In this document: piece by piece, positions 27,359-54,736 of the stretch | Numbering within the stretch: position 1 is the first letter of the stretch | Layout: the number at the start of each line of letters is the position of its first letter | Assembly (NCBI GenBank): GCA_963930775.1 | Contig: OZ005689.1 | Span: 8,382,854 to 8,446,853, forward strand | DNA length: 64,000 nucleotides | Direction: 5' to 3' | Source of the DNA: Cliona cf. orientalis | Lineage: Eukaryota; Porifera; Demospongiae; Clionaida; Clionaidae | The notes under the pieces: model-generated | The model's database searches: none | What the model saw: the letters and a program-made list of their open reading frames with translations, nothing else | Told to the model about the DNA's origin: nothing | Position numbers and translations under genes: made by a program

Positions 27359-29668
27359 TCATGCATGGGTAGAAACAGTTTTCCCCGAAAGTGCATCCTG
27401 AGAAGGAGTGTAGTGACTGTACTTCTCTCTGAACAATGGAATTATCGGAGGAAGAAACAGAACAAAGAGGCAGATGTAGACTGCGCTGTCTAGCAGGATA
27501 CTAATGACGATAAAATTAGCAGTTATGTCGATGTTAATGATCCGGATTATCAAGTAAATTGGGATACTGATGGATGAGATGATGGAGAGGAGATAGACCA
27601 GGATAACCACATTGTTGGTTTCAAACTGTTTCAGGCTCACCTTGCGAGTAAGAAGTGCAAAGGTCAGAGAAGACAGCATGATGATGCCTTTGTAACCGAC
27701 AGTGGTGAGTAGCCAGATTTCAGTCCACTTTGATTCACACTTGACCTCTATCGCTACAATATTAATACCAATTCCATCCAAAAATGTACGATCTTCCTTG
27801 GACTTCAATGGGTCATAAGAAGTCCAGATGACTCCAATAAGGATATTGACAAGGAATAAAAGAAGAATGAATCCAGCAAGGGTTTTATCCTTGATCAGTC
27901 TTTTATTTACATCGTTCTTCTTGAAGATGTAATAGAGTCGCCAAGTCTTGAGGCACACAGCAGCCAGTATTAGTGTAAGTCCCATATTAGCTGTCCACAG
28001 TATGAAGTTACAGAGTCCAGTCTGTGTTGATGAGTGCAATTTTATTGTCTCGCTTAGAGCGTAAAACACAGCACTTACGATCACCAAGTAGCACCCCACA
28101 AAGATAAACTGGTTAAGTCGATAGCTGGAGGCTTTAATGGTTGTGTAGTTACGGTACACCACGTTGATCACATGAACAGGAATGGCTAGGAGAAGAGCAG
28201 TAATTTCAATGATTATGAAAATTACAGCAATGACTGTGTTTAAACACCTAAGGGTATGTGGAAAATCATCGTCAATGAAGACTGGATTTGCGCTTGGAAA
28301 GATTGTCAGTTCTCCAGATCTGTAGAAGCCAATCCTTTTGCTCACACTGCTGCTAATATTACTATACTGATACAAATCCATTGTTTTGCTCAAAAATCCC
28401 GTTTCATTGTCAAACCTTATTCGCCCACTTATCCCTTGAAAATCCAAACTTAGCAGATGTCTTTGAATAATGGCCGTAATTTTATCCTGCCTGTTGCGGC
28501 TCTCGCTTGTGAAGGTGATGTTATTGGCATCCAATTCAGGAAGGGAGCTGTTCAATGCAAGAGCCAATGCCCATACAGCATCGTAAACTGGATTGGTCCA
28601 GGTTGTTAAGTTGTACATGGATCGGACAGAACACTCATATGCCTCATCTTCAACTTTATACTCGGTAAGATACTGATTATATGATAGACCTGAGAAAGTG
28701 CTCATGTTTTTTGTGTCAGGTTGAAACCTAATGAAATAATAAAGAAGCCCATTCACTGCAGTAGAGAAATCCCTAGGAGAACAGTAGTATCTGGTACCGC
28801 CATAGTTGAAGTCAGCTTCACGATAAAAATCTGAATCATAGAGGAGCTCAGACACCCACTGATAGTTGGGATAGATCATGCCTTGGTGGTAAGCCAGACA
28901 CAGTACCTTGCGAGTGAGTCTAGCTGTGCTCTCAACAAAAATGATTCGTAGGAATGACTGCCTCACTGCTTCAAGTGGAAGAAAAGCATCATAAATTGGA
29001 GTTGCAAATGTTATCTCAAATCCAGGAAGGGTACTTAATTTTTTCCTGAGTTCAAGGAATACTTCACGGCTATACTGACGCTCTCTGTATAACATGGCAA
29101 CACGTTTCCAATTCTTTTTCTTGATAAGTTCAAACTATGCATCAGCAGAAGTTGAAATAGATCCTATAATCCCAAATGAATTTGTACAATCAGCAAAGAC
29201 ACCAAATCTACCCCAGTTAATACTAACAAGGGGTAGTCTCTCAGTTGATGTAAGCTGAACAATGCTGAATGCAGAACTGTCACAAGTGGGGCCTACAATT
29301 CCTACAAGAGGCCTCTCCCTTTCAGCAATATCTTTAGCATAGCTGTACACCTCTCTCTGTGCTTCACAGCCAGTATCACTCATGATGAAATCCAAGGTGT
29401 AATTTTTCAATATGTCACTTTGATTATTAATGTGTTTGATAGCCAGGTTGGCAATTGGTGTCATTTGGTGTCCTTGAAAATCGTAATAGAAAGCAAATGA
29501 AGATCTGTTGAGTGGATCTGCATAGGGAACCATCAACATAAATTTGATTGTTTTGGCACTAGTGTTTTTCTTCTGTACATGGCCACAGTATTGACTCTGA
29601 GATATACCACTAATGCTAAGGGCAAGTTGTGCTACAAGTAGAAACCTTACTATGGTACCATGCTCCAT
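27359..29668 (-). pseudogene. Single-exon class C GPCR (GABA-B-like) with one in-frame TAG
   Basis: From ATG 29668 to TGA 27359 there are 770 codons in one frame, interrupted only by TAG at 29135-29137. Residues 1-26 form a signal peptide (VRFLLVAQLALSISG). An ANF/PBP1-type Venus-flytrap domain follows, with GIVGPTCDSSAFSIVQLTS and RLPLVSINWG, continuing after the stop as FELIKKKNWKRVAMLY. Seven membrane segments run from LNTVIAVIFIIIEITALLLA to YICLFVLFLPPIIPLF, with intracellular KTWRLYYIFKKN and RKVSLKQFETNN, placing it nearest the metabotropic GABA-B group. It lacks the Cys-rich linker of glutamate receptors. The lesion could be a nonsense polymorphism, a sequence error, readthrough, or a young pseudogene; the rest of the frame is fully preserved. 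Its last 36 codons are duplicated at 37520-37628. Confidence 0.85.
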
Positions 29669-30100
29669 TATTGACTGCTTAGTTCGACAAATTAGCCTCA
29701 ATGAATGATCAAAATATCATGAGCACCATTGCACACTAGTCTGCTGAACTGTGTTGCAAAAGACTACATCCCTATTTAAGTACTATGAAAACGGTGATCA
29801 GTGTGCATACTACATCCTCTTTCTTGCATGGAATTCCAGTGACATTATTGGGACTTTGGCTCACCCCCACATAATGCCCTATAGTGTAGTGTATGCGACT
29901 ATATGGTATATACTATGCCTAGTAGCTACACACAGTGGCATACGAACCATGGGGTTTGGAGGGCCCCTGTTAAAAAAATAATATAGGCCCCTCTCTACCA
30001 TGAAATTCCTCTACCCAGTAATTATTATATGTACGTGTATCTGCACCTACAAGTGTGCATACTTGTAATGAATATTTACATTATGCAAATTAATCATATT
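29669..30100. other. Upstream region of the class C GPCR
   Basis: Presumed promoter side of the minus-strand receptor gene. No TIR element or exon recognised. Confidence 0.4.
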
Positions 30101-39365: not shown

Positions 39366-40094
39366 CTAAGTGCACAAACGCCTAGACAGTGCAGCCAAGT
39401 TTTCTGGGGCCATTCTCACATAGGCAAGGTAAGCAGAGGACTTCCAACGTCCGAGAGTTTGTATTACAGAATCCTCTATACCGTGTGCTGCAGCAGTAGA
39501 AGCCGCGCCAATCCGGAAGCTGTGGCCAGAATACTGAGAGCTATCGATACCTGACCTGGCCAGGGTGTCTCTGAATGAGCTGGTAAACTTATTCTTTGTC
39601 AGGGGAGAATGATCGCGGTAATGAAATAGGGGGCCTGGATGATTTCCCCTTAATAGCAAAAAATGTAAGAGAGCTGTTACTGGGCAAAGAGTGGTACCTG
39701 TGGAACCCAGGTATATATTCACCCCCTGTCGGAATGGGTCGGTTTTTGATTGTTTAATGGTCAGTTGAATAATAGAAGGCTTGGAAGGGTCATCGACTGC
39801 AATATCCGCAAAGCTCAGGTGCACTGTAGGATCATATGCTGCTGATTGTTCAAGATTATAATATCTTATTCCTGAGAGGTATGATTTAATTGTTTGATGC
39901 TTCAGCTGTTGTTGTCCTAAGAAACTAACGTACTTACACCGGGTTTCTTCATTAGAAGGGTATGCTATTAGTCCTGCACGGGAGCAGAAGTCGATGTATC
40001 TGCGGTGTGCTGAGGAATAGGAGTGTTGAGTATTTTTTGAGAGGGCGGCATGAAAATAGTGCTGAACATCTCTCTCCAAGCTTGAGAGGTCCAA
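39366..40094 (-). CDS. Tyrosine recombinase ORF with internal deletion
   Basis: 242 codons. The N-terminal core-binding part (KNTQHSYSSAHRRYIDFC, KSYLSGIRYY) passes directly into YDPTVHLSFADIAVDD and the catalytic C-terminal part IKQSKTDPF, GHSFRIGAASTAAAHG, TLGRWKSSAYLAYVR, which carries the HxxR, GRW and tyrosine motifs. Compared with DIRS/Ngaro recombinases the stretch carrying the first catalytic arginine region (FFGFLRSGE) is missing between YYNL and EQSAAYDP. That stretch occurs displaced at 44128-44254. It overlaps the end of the RT ORF in another frame, as usual for the group. The deletion should abolish recombination. Confidence 0.85.
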   Translation of the reverse strand: MDLSSLERDVQHYFHAALSKNTQHSYSSAHRRYIDFCSRAGLIAYPSNEETRCKYVSFLGQQQLKHQTIKSYLSGIRYYNLEQSAAYDPTVHLSFADIAVDDPSKPSIIQLTIKQSKTDPFRQGVNIYLGSTGTTLCPVTALLHFLLLRGNHPGPLFHYRDHSPLTKNKFTSSFRDTLARSGIDSSQYSGHSFRIGAASTAAAHGIEDSVIQTLGRWKSSAYLAYVRMAPENLAALSRRLCT

Positions 40095-41845
40095 TCTAGA
40101 TGTGGCTTGGTTAGAAGGTTGATTACTGCAGCTGGGATAGGGCAGGGATATCTGTTGGCCTGTGGGTTAAGGGAAAAGAAGTGTGAAAGCTTATTGCGTG
40201 ACAGTGCGTCAGCTATAGCGTTTTCTGTACCGGGTAGATGGCAGGCTGACAGAGCTATATTAAACCTTGCAGTAAGAAAGTGCAGGCAGCGGATAAGAGC
40301 CATTGCATATGAGTCAGAGCTAGTACTTGCATTAATGATATGCACTGCTGCAGCATTATCACAGCGGCACAGTACTGATTTGTTCTTCCATTGAGCACCC
40401 CAGGTAGCTACTGCTAGGACTATGGGTAATATTTCCTTATTAGTTATGTGTAGATTGCGTAATGCCTCTGGCCATATAAACTGGAACCAAAGCTTATCCC
40501 AGAATGCACCGCAGCCCCAGGACCCGGACGCATCAGAAGTTAGGACGACATCTGGGTGGTCTTTACGGTCATCCAGCATCATAGAGAGACCATTCCAATG
40601 CTCAATAAAGCAATGCCACCACACAATATCAGACTGTGCTTCCTTGTTGAGGCGAATGAAGACATTGCCCCGTCGGTGGTGGGAAGATTTGAGGTGGTTA
40701 ATCAGATAGCGGAGAAAGGTACGGCCTGGACGGACTACTATACTGGCATCCTGTAGGAGACCAATAAGGGACTCCAATTCCTTTCTTTTACAGAAAGGTT
40801 TGTGATTACGAAAGAATTTGTCGTACCATTTTTGAATTGTGGACTTTAGTCGTTCTAGCTTTTGTGCTGGTAAGCGTAGCTCGAGTGCGATTGTGTCAAG
40901 TTCGATACCCAGAAACACTAAAGTTGTAGAGGGTCCCTCACGTTTGGGGAGAGAGAGAGGCAAATTAAGGATGTGGCAGGTATTCTCCAGCAATGTGAGG
41001 TTACCCAAACATTCGTGCTCTGTGGCTGCAGCCGTGATGAAATCGTCCAAGAAATGGTCAAGATAAGTTACACCCCTTTGTACAGCGATCCAGCGGAGGG
41101 CAGCAGCAACCGCATTAAAAATTTTGGGGGCTGATCGCAGGCCGAAGGGAAGCACAGAGTCTATGTAAAGCTGCTGATTCCAGATCATGCCCAAGAGGGG
41201 GCGGTCGTGAGGATGGACTGGCACATTACGAAATGCGCTGTCAACATCTATTTTAGCCAAAAAGCAGCCGCGGCCTAATTTTAAGATTTGTCTGACCACA
41301 TCCTGGACTTTCATATAGCTGAGGGAGCAGAAAGATTTCGATATTCCATCATTAACGCTTGAGCCAGCCGGGTGGGAAAGGTCTAGAATCAGACGCCATT
41401 TGTCTGAGTGTTTTTTAGGTATAGCACCCAAGCTGCTGATTTGAGCATAAGGGTAGTCGTTTGGATTTAATGGACCTATTAAGCGACCCTTCTGGACTTC
41501 GTTAGCTAGACCTTCTGAAATAACTGAAGGGTGCTCATTAGCTGAGGGGTGATTTTTCTTGGCTGGTGTGCATGTATGTGTGGCATGAGAGAATCCAATC
41601 CGGAAACCATTAGCGATGCCATCAAGCAAGTAGGACGCATACTCCTGGTCTGGATGCATATTCAGCCAAATTTGCCATGCTTGAAGGTTGAGCGGTGTTA
41701 CTACCTTCCGCAAAATGCTTGGGAGGGAGGGAGGGGATGGGTTAGTGCAGGCAGCCAGTGCTAGCAGGTCAGCTGTGTCTTTAGATGGACCTGTATCCAG
41801 GCCGTTAGCGGTTGCAGCTGTGCCTAATGTGTGGGCAGGGAATTA
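39968..41845 (-). CDS. DIRS-like reverse transcriptase-RNase H ORF
   Basis: The frame is open from after a TAA near 41848 to 39968, about 625 codons; the first recognisable RT sequence is LNLQAWQIWLNMHPDQEYA. There is no ATG at the beginning, so the start is uncertain. RT motifs include FLAKIDVDSAFRNVPVHP, LPFGLRSAPKIFNAVAAAL and LDHFLDDFI, with LDD as the catalytic box. RNase H follows as VVLTSDASGSWGCGAFW, NKEILPIVLAVATWG and LCRCDNAAAV, the typical DIRS RT-RH order. The frame is intact. Confidence 0.9.
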
Positions 41846-48000: not shown

Positions 48001-48189
48001 AGTAGAGACCTCGCTTCGCTTGGATTGCAAATTTTTTTGTTGGGACCACTCTTCACGTGAGATCGATCTATTATGCGATGCACTTCACATGCGCGTGCGC
48101 GATCATAAAACCACGCTAGTTGTCAACCGTGCTGAATCAGCATAAATGCATGTCGCATGCAACCATCCTATGCACAAGGTATTCCAGCT

Positions 48190-51100
48190 ATGGCGCAATT
48201 GGAGAGTGATCAGCGTAAGTAAGACAAACTCTAATTTAAACTGAAGTATATTATGATGGTACTTGATAGTTGGGTATGCTAGGTCACCATACCAGCATAG
48301 CTGGCACTGACAGTAGCAATGCCATGAGTCACTGGCTCAGCATGATATACATGGGCTCAGTGATGTACATAATGAGCATTACGGTAGCTACTATGTATTC
48401 AATAAGGTTTTGTAGTACACCATTGATATTCAATGCGTACTTTTGTGACAGTGAAAGTGTGCGGTGTGACGTTGGGAGTGAATGAAAGAAGGAGGCTGAC
48501 ATGCTTGAGTGGTTTATTGAATGATAAGGTAGGTTGTGAGAGACAGTGTAGCTACATTATATGATTTAATAATCAGTTGACATTATAATTAAAGTATTAC
48601 GATTTGAAATAGGTTATAGCAGCGTACCTGAGGCTAATTAAGCGGAGAGCAGCACCACGAGAGGTAAGTACTTGACATGGTACAAACCTGGGTCACCTAA
48701 CATTAATAAAATTTAATAATATGATAGATACTTTTGCTGGATTCTCTATTCTTGGAACAATTTGAGAAGTCTGGCTACAACTCAGTGAAGCGTGCCTTAA
48801 GTGTTGTAAGTAAATTAATGTGGTTTATAATACATGTAATTATTATTGTAGCAAAATTAATTATTATGATCAATTTGCAGGAACAGCTCACTTCAACAAA
48901 TGTTTTATTTATCCCTGTTAACACTGATAAAATTCACTGGAGTCTGATTGTGAGTCAATTGAGTTATTATGGATATTATGGTGTTTATTATGAACGAACT
49001 CCCAGGTGGTGTATCTAGCTGAACATAGAGTTGTCTTCTTTGATTCTCTGCTATGGGAGCGAGAGCATTATGCAAGGCTTGTAATGTAAGTATATTTTTT
49101 GCATTCAATATGACAGTAATTATTATGAGATATTAATAATTCTTAGTTCCTATCTGAAGCAAAAAGTGGAGGAATTTAATCAGCATGAGTGGAAAATTGA
49201 GTATCCAAAGGTACAAAGACCATATATTTGCACTGCTTTCTCACCAGATAAATCAACCACTTGTAGGATGTTCCAATGCAGAAGAACGGAACAGACTGTG
49301 GCATCTTTGTGTGCCAGGTATAGTTATTTCATGGGGGTATACTCTTGCTAATCTTATTAATTAACTTTTTTAACACACAGTACGCAAAGCGCCTAGCATT
49401 TGAGAAAGAATTGTTATTCACTCAGGTAATGTGAATGTAGTAGAACTTATACAGAGGTATATGTAATGATTATACATACGTATGATATGGTTAATCAGGA
49501 TGATATCCCTCGAATGAGAGAGCAGATGTTGGAAGAGCTTAAAAGTGGAGAATTGAACTTGTAAGACACATGATATTGTTACAATGTTTATCTTCTCTTC
49601 CCCAGTCATTGTTTTTGAATAAAATTAATTTTGACATTATAATATTATAATATTAGGGAATTCCCACCGAGTACATCGACCAAGGAAAAAGATTCAGTTG
49701 TACAATGTCATGCAACCACCAAGCCATCTACCAGTAACAAAGATGCAGGAGATATGAGAGTGCAAACCAAGATTAAGCCATCTACTATCAAGAAGAGGTA
49801 GCTATATTATGAAAGGCTGTGTATATGTATGTGCGTGTGTATGTGCATGTGTGTGTATTTCTTTGGAATTGCCTTAGCCAAACCCAAGTGTTTATACGTA
49901 GGCAAATTACTGTCCCTGACATGGCATAGGTAATCATCGGATAGTATAGCCACACAAATCTGCTCTCCATTGACTTAAATTAAGGAAAATACCTAATGTG
50001 CGTGTATGTTATATATGTGTGTATGTGTCTCTGTGTCACCTAGCAACCAAGGCACATTATTGGCTATGCAATGAGTATAGATGATCATAGGGTAGCTTAA
50101 TGATGAAAGGGGGTCATAGACAAATTAACTGGGGTAAACTCGACTATCATCTCATGCATCCTAAGTGTAACTACTAACTTTTGTGTGTGTGTGTGTACAT
50201 ATGTACGTGTGTGTATATGTGTGTGTATGTGTGTGTGTGTGTGTGAGACCTGTATGTGTGTGTGGGTTCATGCTAGACTTGCTGATTAACCACATTATTT
50301 AGAGTATAATTAAACCTTGTTACATGAATATATTGTGGTGTGCATGTAGTTGTACATAGTCCTAATGGGTTGATGTTTATACTATTTTCTATACATTATG
50401 TTGATGATAATGTACATCTTTATACACATTAGGAGCCTTATGGACAAATCTGGTGAAATATCATCCAAACGAGCTAAGATATCTACACCATCCCAAACGT
50501 TAGCTCAAAGCTTTCAAGAGGTCCCAGATGATCTTCAATCAATTTTACCTTCAGATTACATGTACCATATTGAAACATTTGAGGAACTGCCAAAGAGTAC
50601 TTTCCTTGGTGCACCTGCAGCTTATTTTAAAACAAAATTTTACATCAAGCTCGACAATGAAGCAGCAGCACGTCAATGGCTTCAAAAATTTGAGGATAAA
50701 AGTCGTACTACTTACCGCATTCTAAAAGGTTCTAAACCAGCTGGCAGTATTATTATCTTTAAGACTGTGAAACACTGTCAACACTTTCGCAAATATTTCC
50801 CAAAAGAAAGGGTTCCAAAGCGAGGAGAAAAAAGCTTAAGGCAGAAAAAAACCGAATGTCCAAGTCGGTTAACACTTCGTATTTATTCTCAACGACCATC
50901 AGTTGTTAGAAAACTTCCGGTGAGTGACCATTTGTGTGAAGTGGACTTAATTTATGACCACGATCATCCTGTTGACTCTGCACATTCATTGAGCTTTCGT
51001 GATGTAAGTGACGAGACAAAATCTACCTTTTATGAGTATTTCAAAAATGGTCACTCGGCTGCTTCAGCTCGGCATGAGCATGAGCTGCGCCTGCAACTTT

Positions 51101-53218
51101 CATCATCTGATCCATCACTGGTAGAAACACTCCTGGCTGACAGAGCTACTAATCCAAATGTTCAGGATGTATCACGTCTTCTTGCAGCATGGCGTACGCA
51201 ACAATTAGGTCCTGGTAGTGGTGAAGGAATGTTTGATCGCCTTGAAGAGGAGGTCAAGGAGTACAATAAACAGCATGCTGACGATGGAGGGAAGGCCGTT
51301 GTTCAACGATTCAATGCTTCATACTCTGCACATGAAGAAGAGGAAGCTACAAACAACACATCAAAAAAAATAATAGCATCCGGAAAGCAGCCACTCATTT
51401 TGGCTATATGTAGCCCCATCATGGCTCGTGCCCACAAGAGTGTACGTCAGGCATCTGAATTAGTGTTCATGGATGCTACCTCCAGCCTTGATCGATTTAG
51501 CTGCCCTACTTATATACTTAGCACTGGATCTGCTGCAGGAGCTATTCCCCTGGGTATATTTGTTGTTTCTGACGAGTCAGTATCCACTATTGCTGCTGGC
51601 CTTAATCTCTTGAAGTCAATCATGCCATCTGGAGCTTTTTATGGCCGAGGGAGTGAAATAGGTCCAGAATGCATTTTAATAGATGAACAAGCAGCACAAC
51701 GTGAAGCACTTAGACAGGTCTGGCCTGGCACAAGACAACTTCTCTGCTTGTTCCATTACTTGCAAAGGTGGTGGAGATGGTTATGGGAAAAGAAGCAAGA
51801 CATTGATCTCGAAGATAGGAAGGACATTATGCAGTTGGTGAGAAAGCTTGTGTATGCATCATCACCTCTTGAACTGTCTGAAATTTATCATGACATAATC
51901 AACAATCCTACCTCCTTGATTTCGTTGTATCCTAATGTTGAGGAAAGATTACGAGATATGCGGCAGAAAGAAGAAGAATGGGCACTGATTCATCGCTCTG
52001 ATCTTACAACTCAAGGGAAGTGTACCAATAATTACTCCGAAGCAAGTATGCGTATTCTGAAGGATCGTATTTTCGAACGAACGAGAGCATATAATGTAGT
52101 TCAAATGTTTCACTACCTTTCAACTACCCTAGAATTGTACTTCGAAAAACGGTTGCTGGATATTGCCCATAGTAGACCCAGTCCTCATCTCAAATTACCG
52201 TCAACAATCAGTGAGAAAATAAAAGAGCCAGCTTTTTTGGAAAGATTGAGCAACACTATCTATCGATTTCGATACACTAATGACCCCAGCCGAAATCATG
52301 TCATAGAACTCGAGTTAGGAATGTGTAGTTGTCCTGTGGGAGTCAGTGGTGCTCCTTGTAAGCATCAAGCCTTCGCTCTTCAAGAACTTGGGGTCCCATC
52401 CGTTAACTTTGTTCCACAGTACTCTGCTGAAGGAAGGCAACTCTTCGCTATACTTGCTCTTGGAGAGAAGAATGTTCCTAGTGTGTCCTTTTTTGCTAGT
52501 ATCCACGAGAAAAAGCAACCAGCAAAACAGAAATCCTCTGTGGTTGTAAAAGATACCGACAACAAAGAGAATGAAGCCCCTATTGTCCTAGATCCTGGTT
52601 ATCCACCTTCACCAGAGCCAATTATCACTCCTCAAATGGAAAATCAGGAACAGGAGGGGGTACGCTCTGAACTTTTGGAAATTGTTGATGATATGTGTGC
52701 TCGACTCACACAACAAAACGCAACCTATAATAGTGGGGTTCGCACATTTATTCACCGATACAAAATCTTACAACGGAAGACAATTTCTACACCATGCATT
52801 GCAAGTGCACTGCACATGTTTGGAAGTGAAGGTGAGCTTAAGTTTGGCTGTCCATTTAGTACTAGTTGCTAGGACATACTATCTGCCTCTTTCTTCAGTT
52901 GGGGGAAGGGGCATTGTGTATTGACCTTCAGGCACCAATTATTATTTTAAATTGGTTGCTCATTGTGCCTTCTTTTATGTAGCTCATAAAGGACGCTGGG
53001 GTCGAAAGATGATTCCTGTTCAAGTAACAGCCACTTCAAGACGAAGGAAGGGTGCACCAAGAGGAGCCAAGCCCATTCCTCAAGGTCGTCCACCACTACT
53101 AAGTAGAAATGTGAAGCCCAAGGGAGAAACTATGCCCATGAAGAGTTTCAAGCCCAAAAAAGCCCACAATTTAGCACTGAACATCAGGAAAAAGACTCCA
53201 AATGCTCAAGTTCACTAG
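48190..53218 (+). CDS. Ulp1-type protease fused to MULE DDE/SWIM transposase, 13 exons
   Basis: Exons by splice consensus and phase: 48190-48214, 48452-48528, 48613-48663, 48728-48805, 48881-48949, 49006-49085, 49147-49210, 49267-49317, 49381-49425, 49499-49560, 49657-49797, 50433-52831, 52983-53218; 3378 nt, about 1125 residues, no stop. Residues 1-200 are a C48 (Ulp1/SENP) protease: LLNDKVIAAYLRLI, FIPVNTDKIHWSLI (His96), VVFFDS (Asp113), VPMQKNGTDCGIFVCQ (Gln153, Cys159). Residues 201-247 form a polar linker. The transposase then has a GCM/FLYWCH-like zinc region ending YDHDHP, the DDE core FMDATSS (Asp595), ILIDEQ (Asp665) and NNYSEAS (Glu784), a LCLFHYLQRWWR block, and the SWIM finger CSCPVGVSGAPCKH (about 879-892). 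The C terminus is basic. Expected nuclear; desumoylase activity is inference. Confidence 0.85.
49800..50432. repeat. Intron with (TG)n tracts
   Basis: The largest intron of the fusion gene (49798-50432) contains several TGTGTATG-rich stretches (about 49820-49860, 50005-50035, 50180-50265). No exon-like sequence noticed inside. Confidence 0.7.
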
Positions 53219-53547
53219 TCAGAAACTACTTGTATTATTAGCACTCAGATAGCTGTTTATCAAAATAATTTCAACATTGTGTAGTCAAGATTCTATATAG
53301 CTTTTACCATGAGTCAGATTTGTATTTGTCGTGTACTTACCAGCCATTTGAGATGATGAAGCGATCGGAAAAGTCCCCATGGGGTTGCCCCCATATTATT
53401 AGTATGTACTGACATATACATGTACATATACATATCTAGCTAGTCTCGTGCCCAGACCCCACCCCAAAAAGGACTTGCGCGGCGCGGCGCCAAGTATTGC
53501 ATCATCACGTGGAAGGTGGTCCCAATAAAAAAATTTGCGCTCGGATT

Positions 53548-53698: not shown

Positions 53699-54736
53699 AT
53701 GGCGACAGCTGTTTCGCAACAAAGACGTAACATTGTTGTCCTGGGAAAAACCGGCGCTGGAAAGTCAACGGTAGCGAATCAAATTCTTGGTACGAATCAT
53801 TTTGAAGTAAGCACTTCTACACAAAGTGCAGGGGCGTAGCTTAGTTGTTTCCTTGTTGCCCGGAAACCCCCCCTGGCAGTCAGATTCAGTATTATCTTAG
53901 TATGATTTAGCTATCAGGAAACCCCCTTGGTTTCCAGATTCAATGTGCAGGCACTAAAATCTCCTAAAACTTAGCCTAGATCTCCTCCTTTTGTGCTTTT
54001 CTCTGCCAAAATCTCGAGAATCTAGCAAAATCTTGCTGAAAATGGCGATTGTTAATTAGAGGGCGTGACGAAAAGTGGGCGTGGCCTTCAATTTTTTTCG
54101 CGCGCGCTTCGCGCGCAACTGCTAGGAAACCCCCTCAGAAAATCCTGGCTACGCCCCTGAAGTGTCACTCGTCGTGTAAGGAATGGAGAGTCTAAGCTTA
54201 CCGTAGATGGAGTCGATTACAACATCAAGATAATCGATACTGTTGGACTTTTTGATACTGGATCTATATCTAACAAACAGGTCATAAAATCAATCAAGAG
54301 CCACTTTCAACGAAACGTCCCAGAGGGTGTTAATCTTGTCCTATTCGTATTTAAAGAAGGCCGATTTACGAATGAAGAAAAACAAGCATTTGAATATATT
54401 ATTGCCAAATTCTCAAAGGAAATAACTGATATATCAGCTCTGATCATAACAAATTGCGAGCTTAAAAATGAAACAGCTAGAGAAAGAATAATTGATGAGT
54501 TTAAAACAAGTCCTACAACAAGGCCATTTGCTGCATTTGCAAAGAAAGGCATTTACGCCGTTGGTTTTCCAAATACTGAAGAAATTGATGAAGAGGATCT
54601 GACACCAAACGTCCGAAAACGAATCGAGAATGACAAAGAAGTGTTGCAGTTATTTGTACGTTCATGTGGCGACGAGCTTAAGCTGTCACGAGAGTTGTTT
54701 GCTGAAGAGTTTTGGGAGAGATGTAACTTTTTGTAA
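53699..54736 (+). pseudogene. AIG1/GIMAP-like GTPase split by a MITE
   Basis: ATG 53699 starts MATAVSQQRRNIVVLGKTGA with G1 GKTGAGKST. After QS the frame is interrupted by a 331-bp MITE (53829-54159), then resumes as SVTRRVRNGESKLTVDGVDY, IIDTVGLFDTG (G3), NLVLFVFKEGRFTNEEKQAF and ALIITNCE (G4-like), ending ERCNFL at TAA 54734-54736. Without the insert it would be a single-exon GTPase of about 235 residues, short for GIMAPs, with no membrane anchor. The MITE introduces stops at once, so the gene is dead unless the insert is spliced out. AIG1 GTPases act on intracellular membranes in stress and immunity; a role here is inference. Confidence 0.85.
53829..54159. mobile_element. MITE with CAGGGGCGTAGC ends inside the GTPase
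   Basis: Perfect terminal inverted repeats CAGGGGCGTAGC / GCTACGCCCCTG and a 5-bp direct repeat AAGTG (53824-53828 and 54160-54164). Interior repeats AGGAAACCCCC near both ends. Removing the element and one AAGTG restores a continuous GTPase frame. Confidence 0.9.

Follow-up and report, generated by a model that had tools for sequence, protein, structure and literature searches.

A Mutator-like transposon of a sponge with a predicted SENP-type protease ahead of its transposase

Mutator-like elements (MULEs) with a transduplicated Ulp1 domain are already known from plants, namely the KAONASHI/KIU Vandal elements of Arabidopsis and elements of melon, rice and grapevine (PMC13317346, PMC2528002; here and below, statements on cited papers refer to the accessible part of their text). 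KI-MULEs have the ULP domain in a gene of its own that runs opposite to mudrA; plant MULEs bear Ulp1 in both orientations, and CACTA elements do, too (PMC2528002). Some VANC anti-silencing genes carry Ulp1 (KIU), and KIU-carrying Vandals induce hypomethylation of related elements, the role of Ulp1 there being stated as unknown (PMC13317346). In Cnidaria, the MULE MuDR-6_HM (group 14, Table 1 of the source) carries an added ovarian-tumour gene (PMC6446971). Here, a MULE is described from a 64,000-nucleotide stretch of the genome of Cliona cf. orientalis (G000:C1:8382854-8446853; the window, numbered from its first nucleotide). With moderate confidence, it is read as a Mutator-like DNA transposon whose gene carries a captured protease of the Ulp1/SENP1-2-3-5 type ahead of the transposase (Table 1).

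Like the KAONASHI-type MULEs, the window element carries an Ulp1 domain inside the MULE. Unlike these non-TIR elements, whose ULP gene is reversed to mudrA, it possesses 34-bp terminal inverted repeats (TIRs), and unlike in KI-MULEs, its protease is SENP-like and precedes the transposase in the same orientation and a compatible frame. MuDR-6_HM is likewise an animal MULE with an additional gene. Ovarian-tumour (OTU) proteins are cysteine proteases, but OTU is a different peptidase family from C48. Human SENP5, SENP1, SENP2 and SENP3 and yeast Ulp1 have the same catalytic domain and residues as the window protease, but are cellular genes without a transposase. The accessible text on MuDR-6_HM names Ulp1 in no MULE group, no protease or C48 in its main text, and no sponge or Porifera; this silence is weak evidence, because the plant VANDAL is likewise given there without Ulp1 (PMC6446971). 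MULE-derived genes were described in Amphimedon with Ulp1 unmentioned in the accessible text (PMC10027918), and SUMO is unmentioned in that of PMC10398659 and PMC5735166. Thus far, no report of an Ulp1-bearing animal MULE was found in the literature searched, Repbase and subscription papers lying outside its scope.

The TIRs of the window element were identical at 30 of 34 positions, and the adjoining 9-bp target-site duplications (TSDs; GCTTGGATT and GCTCGGATT) at 8 of 9. Both are features of MULEs, whose TSDs range from 8 to 11 bp. The element measures about 5.5 kb (48027-53538), and spans 48018-53547 with its TSDs. This anatomy is regarded as almost certain. The TIR and TSD bounds of the protease-transposase gene are new here and were absent from the original prediction, a model-generated note on this DNA which proposed a transposon bringing its own Ulp1-type protease. 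That proposal was borne out, as one TIR/TSD-bounded element contains frame-compatible exons for such a protease, in the same orientation as the transposase and before it.

In order to find further copies, the genome was searched (216.8 Mb in 149 contigs). Besides the window, loci at G000:C1:21.33 Mb and 36.07 Mb were recovered in a protein search with exons 1-11, as were two SENP-like genes on C7. The second copy (G000:C1:21327105-21329842; the deleted copy) aligned to window positions 48022-50117 and then 52845-53547, with many small indels. It retained the protease exons and lacked 50118-52844, i.e., the whole of exon 12. Its termini were the same as those of the window element, and a perfect 9-bp TSD (GACCGGATT) was present on both sides. 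Thus, the protease exons reside inside a mobile MULE. That a host protease and a transposon are neighbours by chance was rejected, since both parts lie within one TIR/TSD unit and the protease exons were mobilised along with it. The TIR pattern with up to three mismatches occurred at four places, the ends of the window and deleted elements, compared to none for a reversed control.

When DNA of the 5' part of the element was used as the query, the window, the deleted copy, a fossil at C2:12.81 Mb and, at C1:36.07 Mb, a 5' fragment were obtained. The 3' part gave 41 matches. The window and the deleted copy accounted for two of them, and the remaining 39 were short hits on a dispersed repeat near 53417-53473. 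Exon 12 was also represented by pieces at C1:36.02 Mb (L043, 298 bp, 93%) and C18:0.30 Mb (L050, 72%). Copies of the window family are very few, and one intact member was found in the genome. In the C2 fossil (G000:C2:12808220-12808439; L073, 2721-2940), the end of exon 3 abuts the start of exon 5 and intron 5 is retained, which could be a deletion or an RNA trace.

Residues 31-193 of the window protein matched Peptidase_C48 in Pfam (E 7.5e-28; 98.3 bits, cut-off 20.7). In a PDB search, 20 distinct sequences matched with E up to 0.01. Chains of SENP5, SENP1, SENP2 and SENP3 ranked highest (8e-27 to 1e-20; SENP5 8e-27), and further matches were yeast Ulp1 (1e-13) and other C48-like proteases (1e-5 to 2e-3). 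The catalytic H, D, Q and C aligned with those of SENP5 in the search output. The predicted triad of H96, D113 and C159 plus Q153 was found at these residues. The protease is probably an active deSUMOylase. Exon 12 contained the MULE domain PF10551 (E 6e-7; 30.3 bits, cut-off 27.6); D595 and D665 were D in 9 of 9 aligned rows and E784 was E in all seven rows that reach it, as expected from the predicted DDE core downstream of the protease. Of the three domains predicted, Peptidase_C48 and MULE exceeded their cut-offs, while SWIM, a zinc finger that many but not all MULEs have, scored 17.4 bits against a cut-off of 19.6. The C-x-C...C-x-H motif of the latter aligned with relatives, among which L024 and L025 exceeded the SWIM cut-off. 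No Pfam family matched exon 13.

The predicted gene was rebuilt letter by letter. As had been claimed for it, 13 exons join in compatible phases across 12 GT-AG introns, giving 1125 codons and a stop. Support for the join of exons 12 and 13 comes from relatives L025, L026, L027 and L029, in which the exon 13 tail follows the transposase without a break. The substitution pattern described below, with its small numbers, supports the reading frames predicted for exons 1-6. An over-fitted splicing artefact was ruled out for these frames by the substitution pattern and for the exon 12-13 join by the tails of the relatives. Exon 1 and the join of exons 11 and 12 are the least secure parts of the model. 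Exons 1-13 likely give a single fused protein.

Conservation of the protease frame was assessed by private changes per copy at 833 aligned sites, comprising exons 1-6 and the noncoding sequence between 48044 and 49134, with the 36.07-Mb copy as third sequence beside the window and deleted copies. The window copy had changed at 3/369 exon and 10/464 noncoding sites, without any frameshift; all three exon changes were synonymous, and a 3-bp in-frame difference in exon 2 set it apart from both other copies. In the deleted copy, 8/369 exon and 4/464 noncoding sites had changed (2 synonymous, 6 nonsynonymous), and a 5-bp gap shifted the frame of exon 5. The third copy exhibited the most changes, with 14/369 exon and 20/464 noncoding sites, three frameshifting exon indels, and 6 synonymous and 8 nonsynonymous exon changes, the latter including 2 stops. 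The distribution between exon and noncoding sites differed between the window and deleted copies (p 0.047). Thus, with small numbers, the protease frame was shown to be preserved in the window copy while the other copies decay.

A genome search with exon 12 gave at least 57 matches, and eight long frames among them (L024-L031) were read, L027 being incomplete. Three of these (L028, L029 and L030) contained, N-terminal of the transposase, a domain of the pattern HW...GDSL...YPLQ...CG with H, D, Q and C in the order of Ulp1. They are referred to as family B, i.e., L029 and L030, with L028 and others in part. Pfam C48 matched L029 at E 0.01, below the cut-off, and did not match L028. As Ulp1, the domain obtained an hhalign probability of 78% (E 1.8e-5); the best PDB match of the family B profile was yeast Ulp1 (E 0.028 over 24 positions), and that of L029 alone XopD (E 0.085). 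With moderate confidence, the domain appears to be Ulp1-like.

The MULE score was 26.4 bits for the L029 frame, just under the cut-off of 27.6, and 28.8 bits for L030; SWIM was called in neither, and its motif aligned with relatives. The L029 frame encodes 1308 aa without introns, and that of L030 is cut short at an insertion of about 1 kb. Both copies were 98.8% identical over 4.2 kb, with 36-bp TIRs and perfect 9-bp TSDs (TTACCGTAA, GTCCGGTAG). The ratio of nonsynonymous to synonymous substitution rates between them was 0.35 over 1164 codons (p 0.001), 0.34 for the transposase (p 0.004), 0.38 for aa 1-400 (p 0.12) and 0.19 for aa 150-370 (p 0.034; a sub-range picked by the analyst). A genome search with the N-terminal part of L029 gave 23 matches. 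Four of them were close to full length (L029, L030, L028 and C1:29297804-29298895, with 40% identity for the last two), and the rest were decayed pieces. A MULE match followed downstream on the same strand at five places, these four and C1:30.93 Mb.

Like the window element, family B has an Ulp1-like domain N-terminal of a MULE transposase and 9-bp TSDs; unlike it, the protease is very divergent and without introns, and the transposase is about 33% identical to that of the window. The original prediction had named homologues with both halves always in separate genes as evidence against a fusion, whereas family B has both in one uninterrupted frame. The TSDs of the window, the deleted copy, L029 and L030 share a CGG/CCG-like core (GCTYGGATT, GACCGGATT, TTACCGTAA, GTCCGGTAG), except for the left TSD of the window element (TGG). 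This core is a possible target preference.

Further neighbouring pairs were sought by comparing at least 22 C48 matches with at least 58 MULE matches. In two cases, the start of a C48 match followed that of a same-strand MULE match, at distances of 2.6 and 2.8 kb, and no other C48-MULE pair lay within 20 kb among the matches listed, which miss the short exons of the window and family B. The first pair (G000:C6:8697971-8701407; L074, L013) comprises ZSWIM1/3-type RNase H and MULE domains, then C48 and a PHD finger, the C48-PHD frame lying 0.3 kb downstream of the MULE frame; these frames are possibly one spliced gene. The second (G000:C1:34368923-34372179; L075, L003) has, all on one strand, MULE and SWIM frames followed by a CXXC finger and a C48 piece. 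A continuous frame of 1124 aa at G000:C8:4064717-4068088 (L080, L010) ends in C48-PHD; since its first 615 residues matched no Pfam family, a transposase label for it is a guess. Similar C48-PHD frames were present in L008, L012, L013 and L018, and L007 and L019 combine a HIRAN domain with a C48 peptidase in one frame. In L024 and L031, a long repeat region with units like GEIHSPTLPG precedes the transposase. Relatives of the window gene were absent from the scanned viral contigs. It is conceivable, if doubtful, that several MULE lineages of one animal genome independently joined Ulp1-type deSUMOylases to their transposases as a recurrent, DNA-targeted counter-defence against SUMO-dependent silencing. 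Such a reading counts the captured SENP upstream, the divergent Ulp1 of family B, and C48-PHD or CXXC-C48 downstream of ZSWIM-type MULEs.

The origin of the window protease was examined by comparison with the two SENP-like genes on C7, a tandem pair at G000:C7:1617-1625 kb; the last C48 piece of the first gene contains an in-frame stop. With exon ends judged from sequence alone, two intron positions, both of phase 0, were common to the window protease and this pair; they lie after ...LNDQ and before GIPHQQNGSDCG in the host genes and after ...LNDK and before DVPMQKNGTDCG in the window. A third host exon end (after ...NFRTK) did not coincide with a window intron, and at least five window introns (3, 4, 5, 8 and 9) had no counterpart in the pair. 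Since two introns match in position and phase, it is likely that the protease was captured from intron-bearing genomic DNA of a cellular SENP gene. Intron gain after capture, or a more intron-rich SENP gene as ancestor, would most simply explain the extra introns. Piece by piece, the protease and the pair shared 26-44% of their residues, so the capture would be old or from another gene; a recent capture from these two genes is unsupported. A retrocopy origin is not favoured, because introns are present and two of their positions match those of the host genes.

Several observations weigh against a transposon that maintains a fused protease-transposase gene. First, an in-frame TAG (49799-49801) overlaps the weak donor of exon 11, and intron 11, at 635 bp the longest, contains ATTAAA at 50309. 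Second, the exon and noncoding changes of the window copy did not differ significantly by themselves (p 0.16), only 3 substitutions standing behind this branch test, and in the unpolarised comparison of the window and deleted copies over exons 1-11, exons were not more conserved (23/726 exon vs. about 19/825 intron sites differing); the latter is expected if the deleted copy decays freely. Third, no C48 was found in L024, L025, L026 and L031, where the frame and 1.5 kb beside the match were examined, so the protease is dispensable in the wider MULE group. Fourth, both C48 arrangements may have a single origin. Family B stands elsewhere than the window element on the transposase tree (8 transposases, L027 left out), where the C48 bearers require two changes and 2% of bootstrap trees unite them, but the firmly supported branches force only one change.

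Rather unlikely, the element may contain two genes, comparable to plant KI-MULEs, with the protease gene ending at the TAG in the exon 11 donor and a separate transposase gene starting from the own ATG of exon 12 at 50440. Such an arrangement agrees with the weak donor overlapping the stop, with the length of intron 11 and its ATTAAA, and with the deleted copy, which kept the protease exons without exon 12. However, phases match across intron 11, and both parts share one uninterrupted frame in family B.

Domestication is also unlikely, i.e., that a former MULE left a protease-transposase gene now serving the host. A single intact copy with the window TIRs was found in the genome, and its frame was kept while its noncoding part changed, which would fit a host gene; however, its TIRs and TSD are still recognisable, all DDE and C48 residues are retained, and the sister copy was inserted with a perfect TSD.

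Most gene fragments in Pack-MULEs have no known function, and the protease exons could be such a functionless, transduplicated passenger. Their decay in the two other main copies and the unpolarised exon divergence, no lower than that of introns, fit passive hitchhiking. It is nevertheless improbable in view of the full C48 domain with all catalytic residues, the synonymous-only changes of the window copy and the several C48-MULE arrangements in the same genome.

In several animals, transposon silencing requires SUMO ligation. For the fused gene, local deSUMOylation as an anti-silencing role is tentatively favoured as its function. A MULE would have captured a cellular SENP gene from genomic DNA, comparable to transduplication by plant MULEs, and exons 1-13 would be translated as one protease-transposase protein. 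The transposase and SWIM part may then carry the protease to the TIR DNA of the element, where the SENP1/2/3/5-type domain would strip SUMO from chromatin or silencing factors, and this removal would keep the element expressed. That the protease instead matures its own transposase by cleavage, as the original prediction had also suggested, or removes SUMO from it, is very improbable: a fusion in cis would presumably put the protease beside its substrate, but the linker (residues 196-300) has no Gly-Gly and the 1125 aa contain no [VILMF]KxE site, both being weak evidence against, as zero sites are not rare in shuffled sequences (mean 1.7) and non-consensus SUMO sites are possible.

The element had been predicted to stem from an animal, and the genome agreed with this. 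Under code 4, the genetic code of sponges and cnidarians among animals, COX1 on contigs C111 and C149 reads 11 TGA as Trp and 8 AGA/AGG as Arg, and the window contains a class C G protein-coupled receptor gene (ANF_receptor and 7tm_3) at 27359-29716 on the minus strand. An AIG1/GIMAP-type GTPase gene lies at 53700-54736 on the plus strand, about 150 bp past the right end of the element. Taken together, the code and these two genes are consistent with a sponge or a cnidarian. At 39369-41842 on the minus strand, a reverse transcriptase frame overlaps a phage-integrase-type (tyrosine recombinase) frame, a retroelement which we take to be DIRS-like.

Table 1. Features of the window element (window positions) with its predicted exons, and locations of the family B copies.
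Feature	Position	Strand	Remarks
Left target-site duplication	48018..48026		9 bp
Left terminal inverted repeat	48027..48060	+	34 bp
Exon 1	48190..48214	+	start codon; least certain exon
Exon 2	48452..48528	+	C48 domain begins; 3' intron position common to host SENP-like genes
Exon 3	48613..48663	+	C48
Exon 4	48728..48805	+	C48
Exon 5	48881..48949	+	C48; catalytic H96 at 48935-48937
Exon 6	49006..49085	+	C48; catalytic D113 at 49042-49044
Exon 7	49147..49210	+	C48
Exon 8	49267..49317	+	C48; Q153 at 49279-49281; nucleophile C159 at 49297-49299; 5' intron position common to host SENP-like genes
Exon 9	49381..49425	+	C48
Exon 10	49499..49560	+	C48 domain ends
Exon 11	49657..49797	+	linker; donor gtagct overlaps in-frame TAG
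Exon 12	50433..52831	+	MULE transposase: D595, D665, E784; SWIM C879/C881/C890/H892
Exon 13	52983..53218	+	basic C-terminal tail; relatives have homologous, uninterrupted tails
Right terminal inverted repeat	53505..53538	-	
Right target-site duplication	53539..53547		9 bp
Family B copy	G000:C1:14278000-14289500		L077, L029, L076
Family B copy	G000:C2:6600500-6611500		L078, L030, L079

With the window element, exon capture by a MULE, introns included, would be documented in an animal. If one protein is made, an animal transposon links a SUMO protease to a DNA-binding transposase of its own, which would give the element a direct way to erase the SUMO mark where it sits. The parallel with the plant Vandal/KIU elements, in which Ulp1 is part of an anti-silencing gene, suggests convergence between kingdoms.

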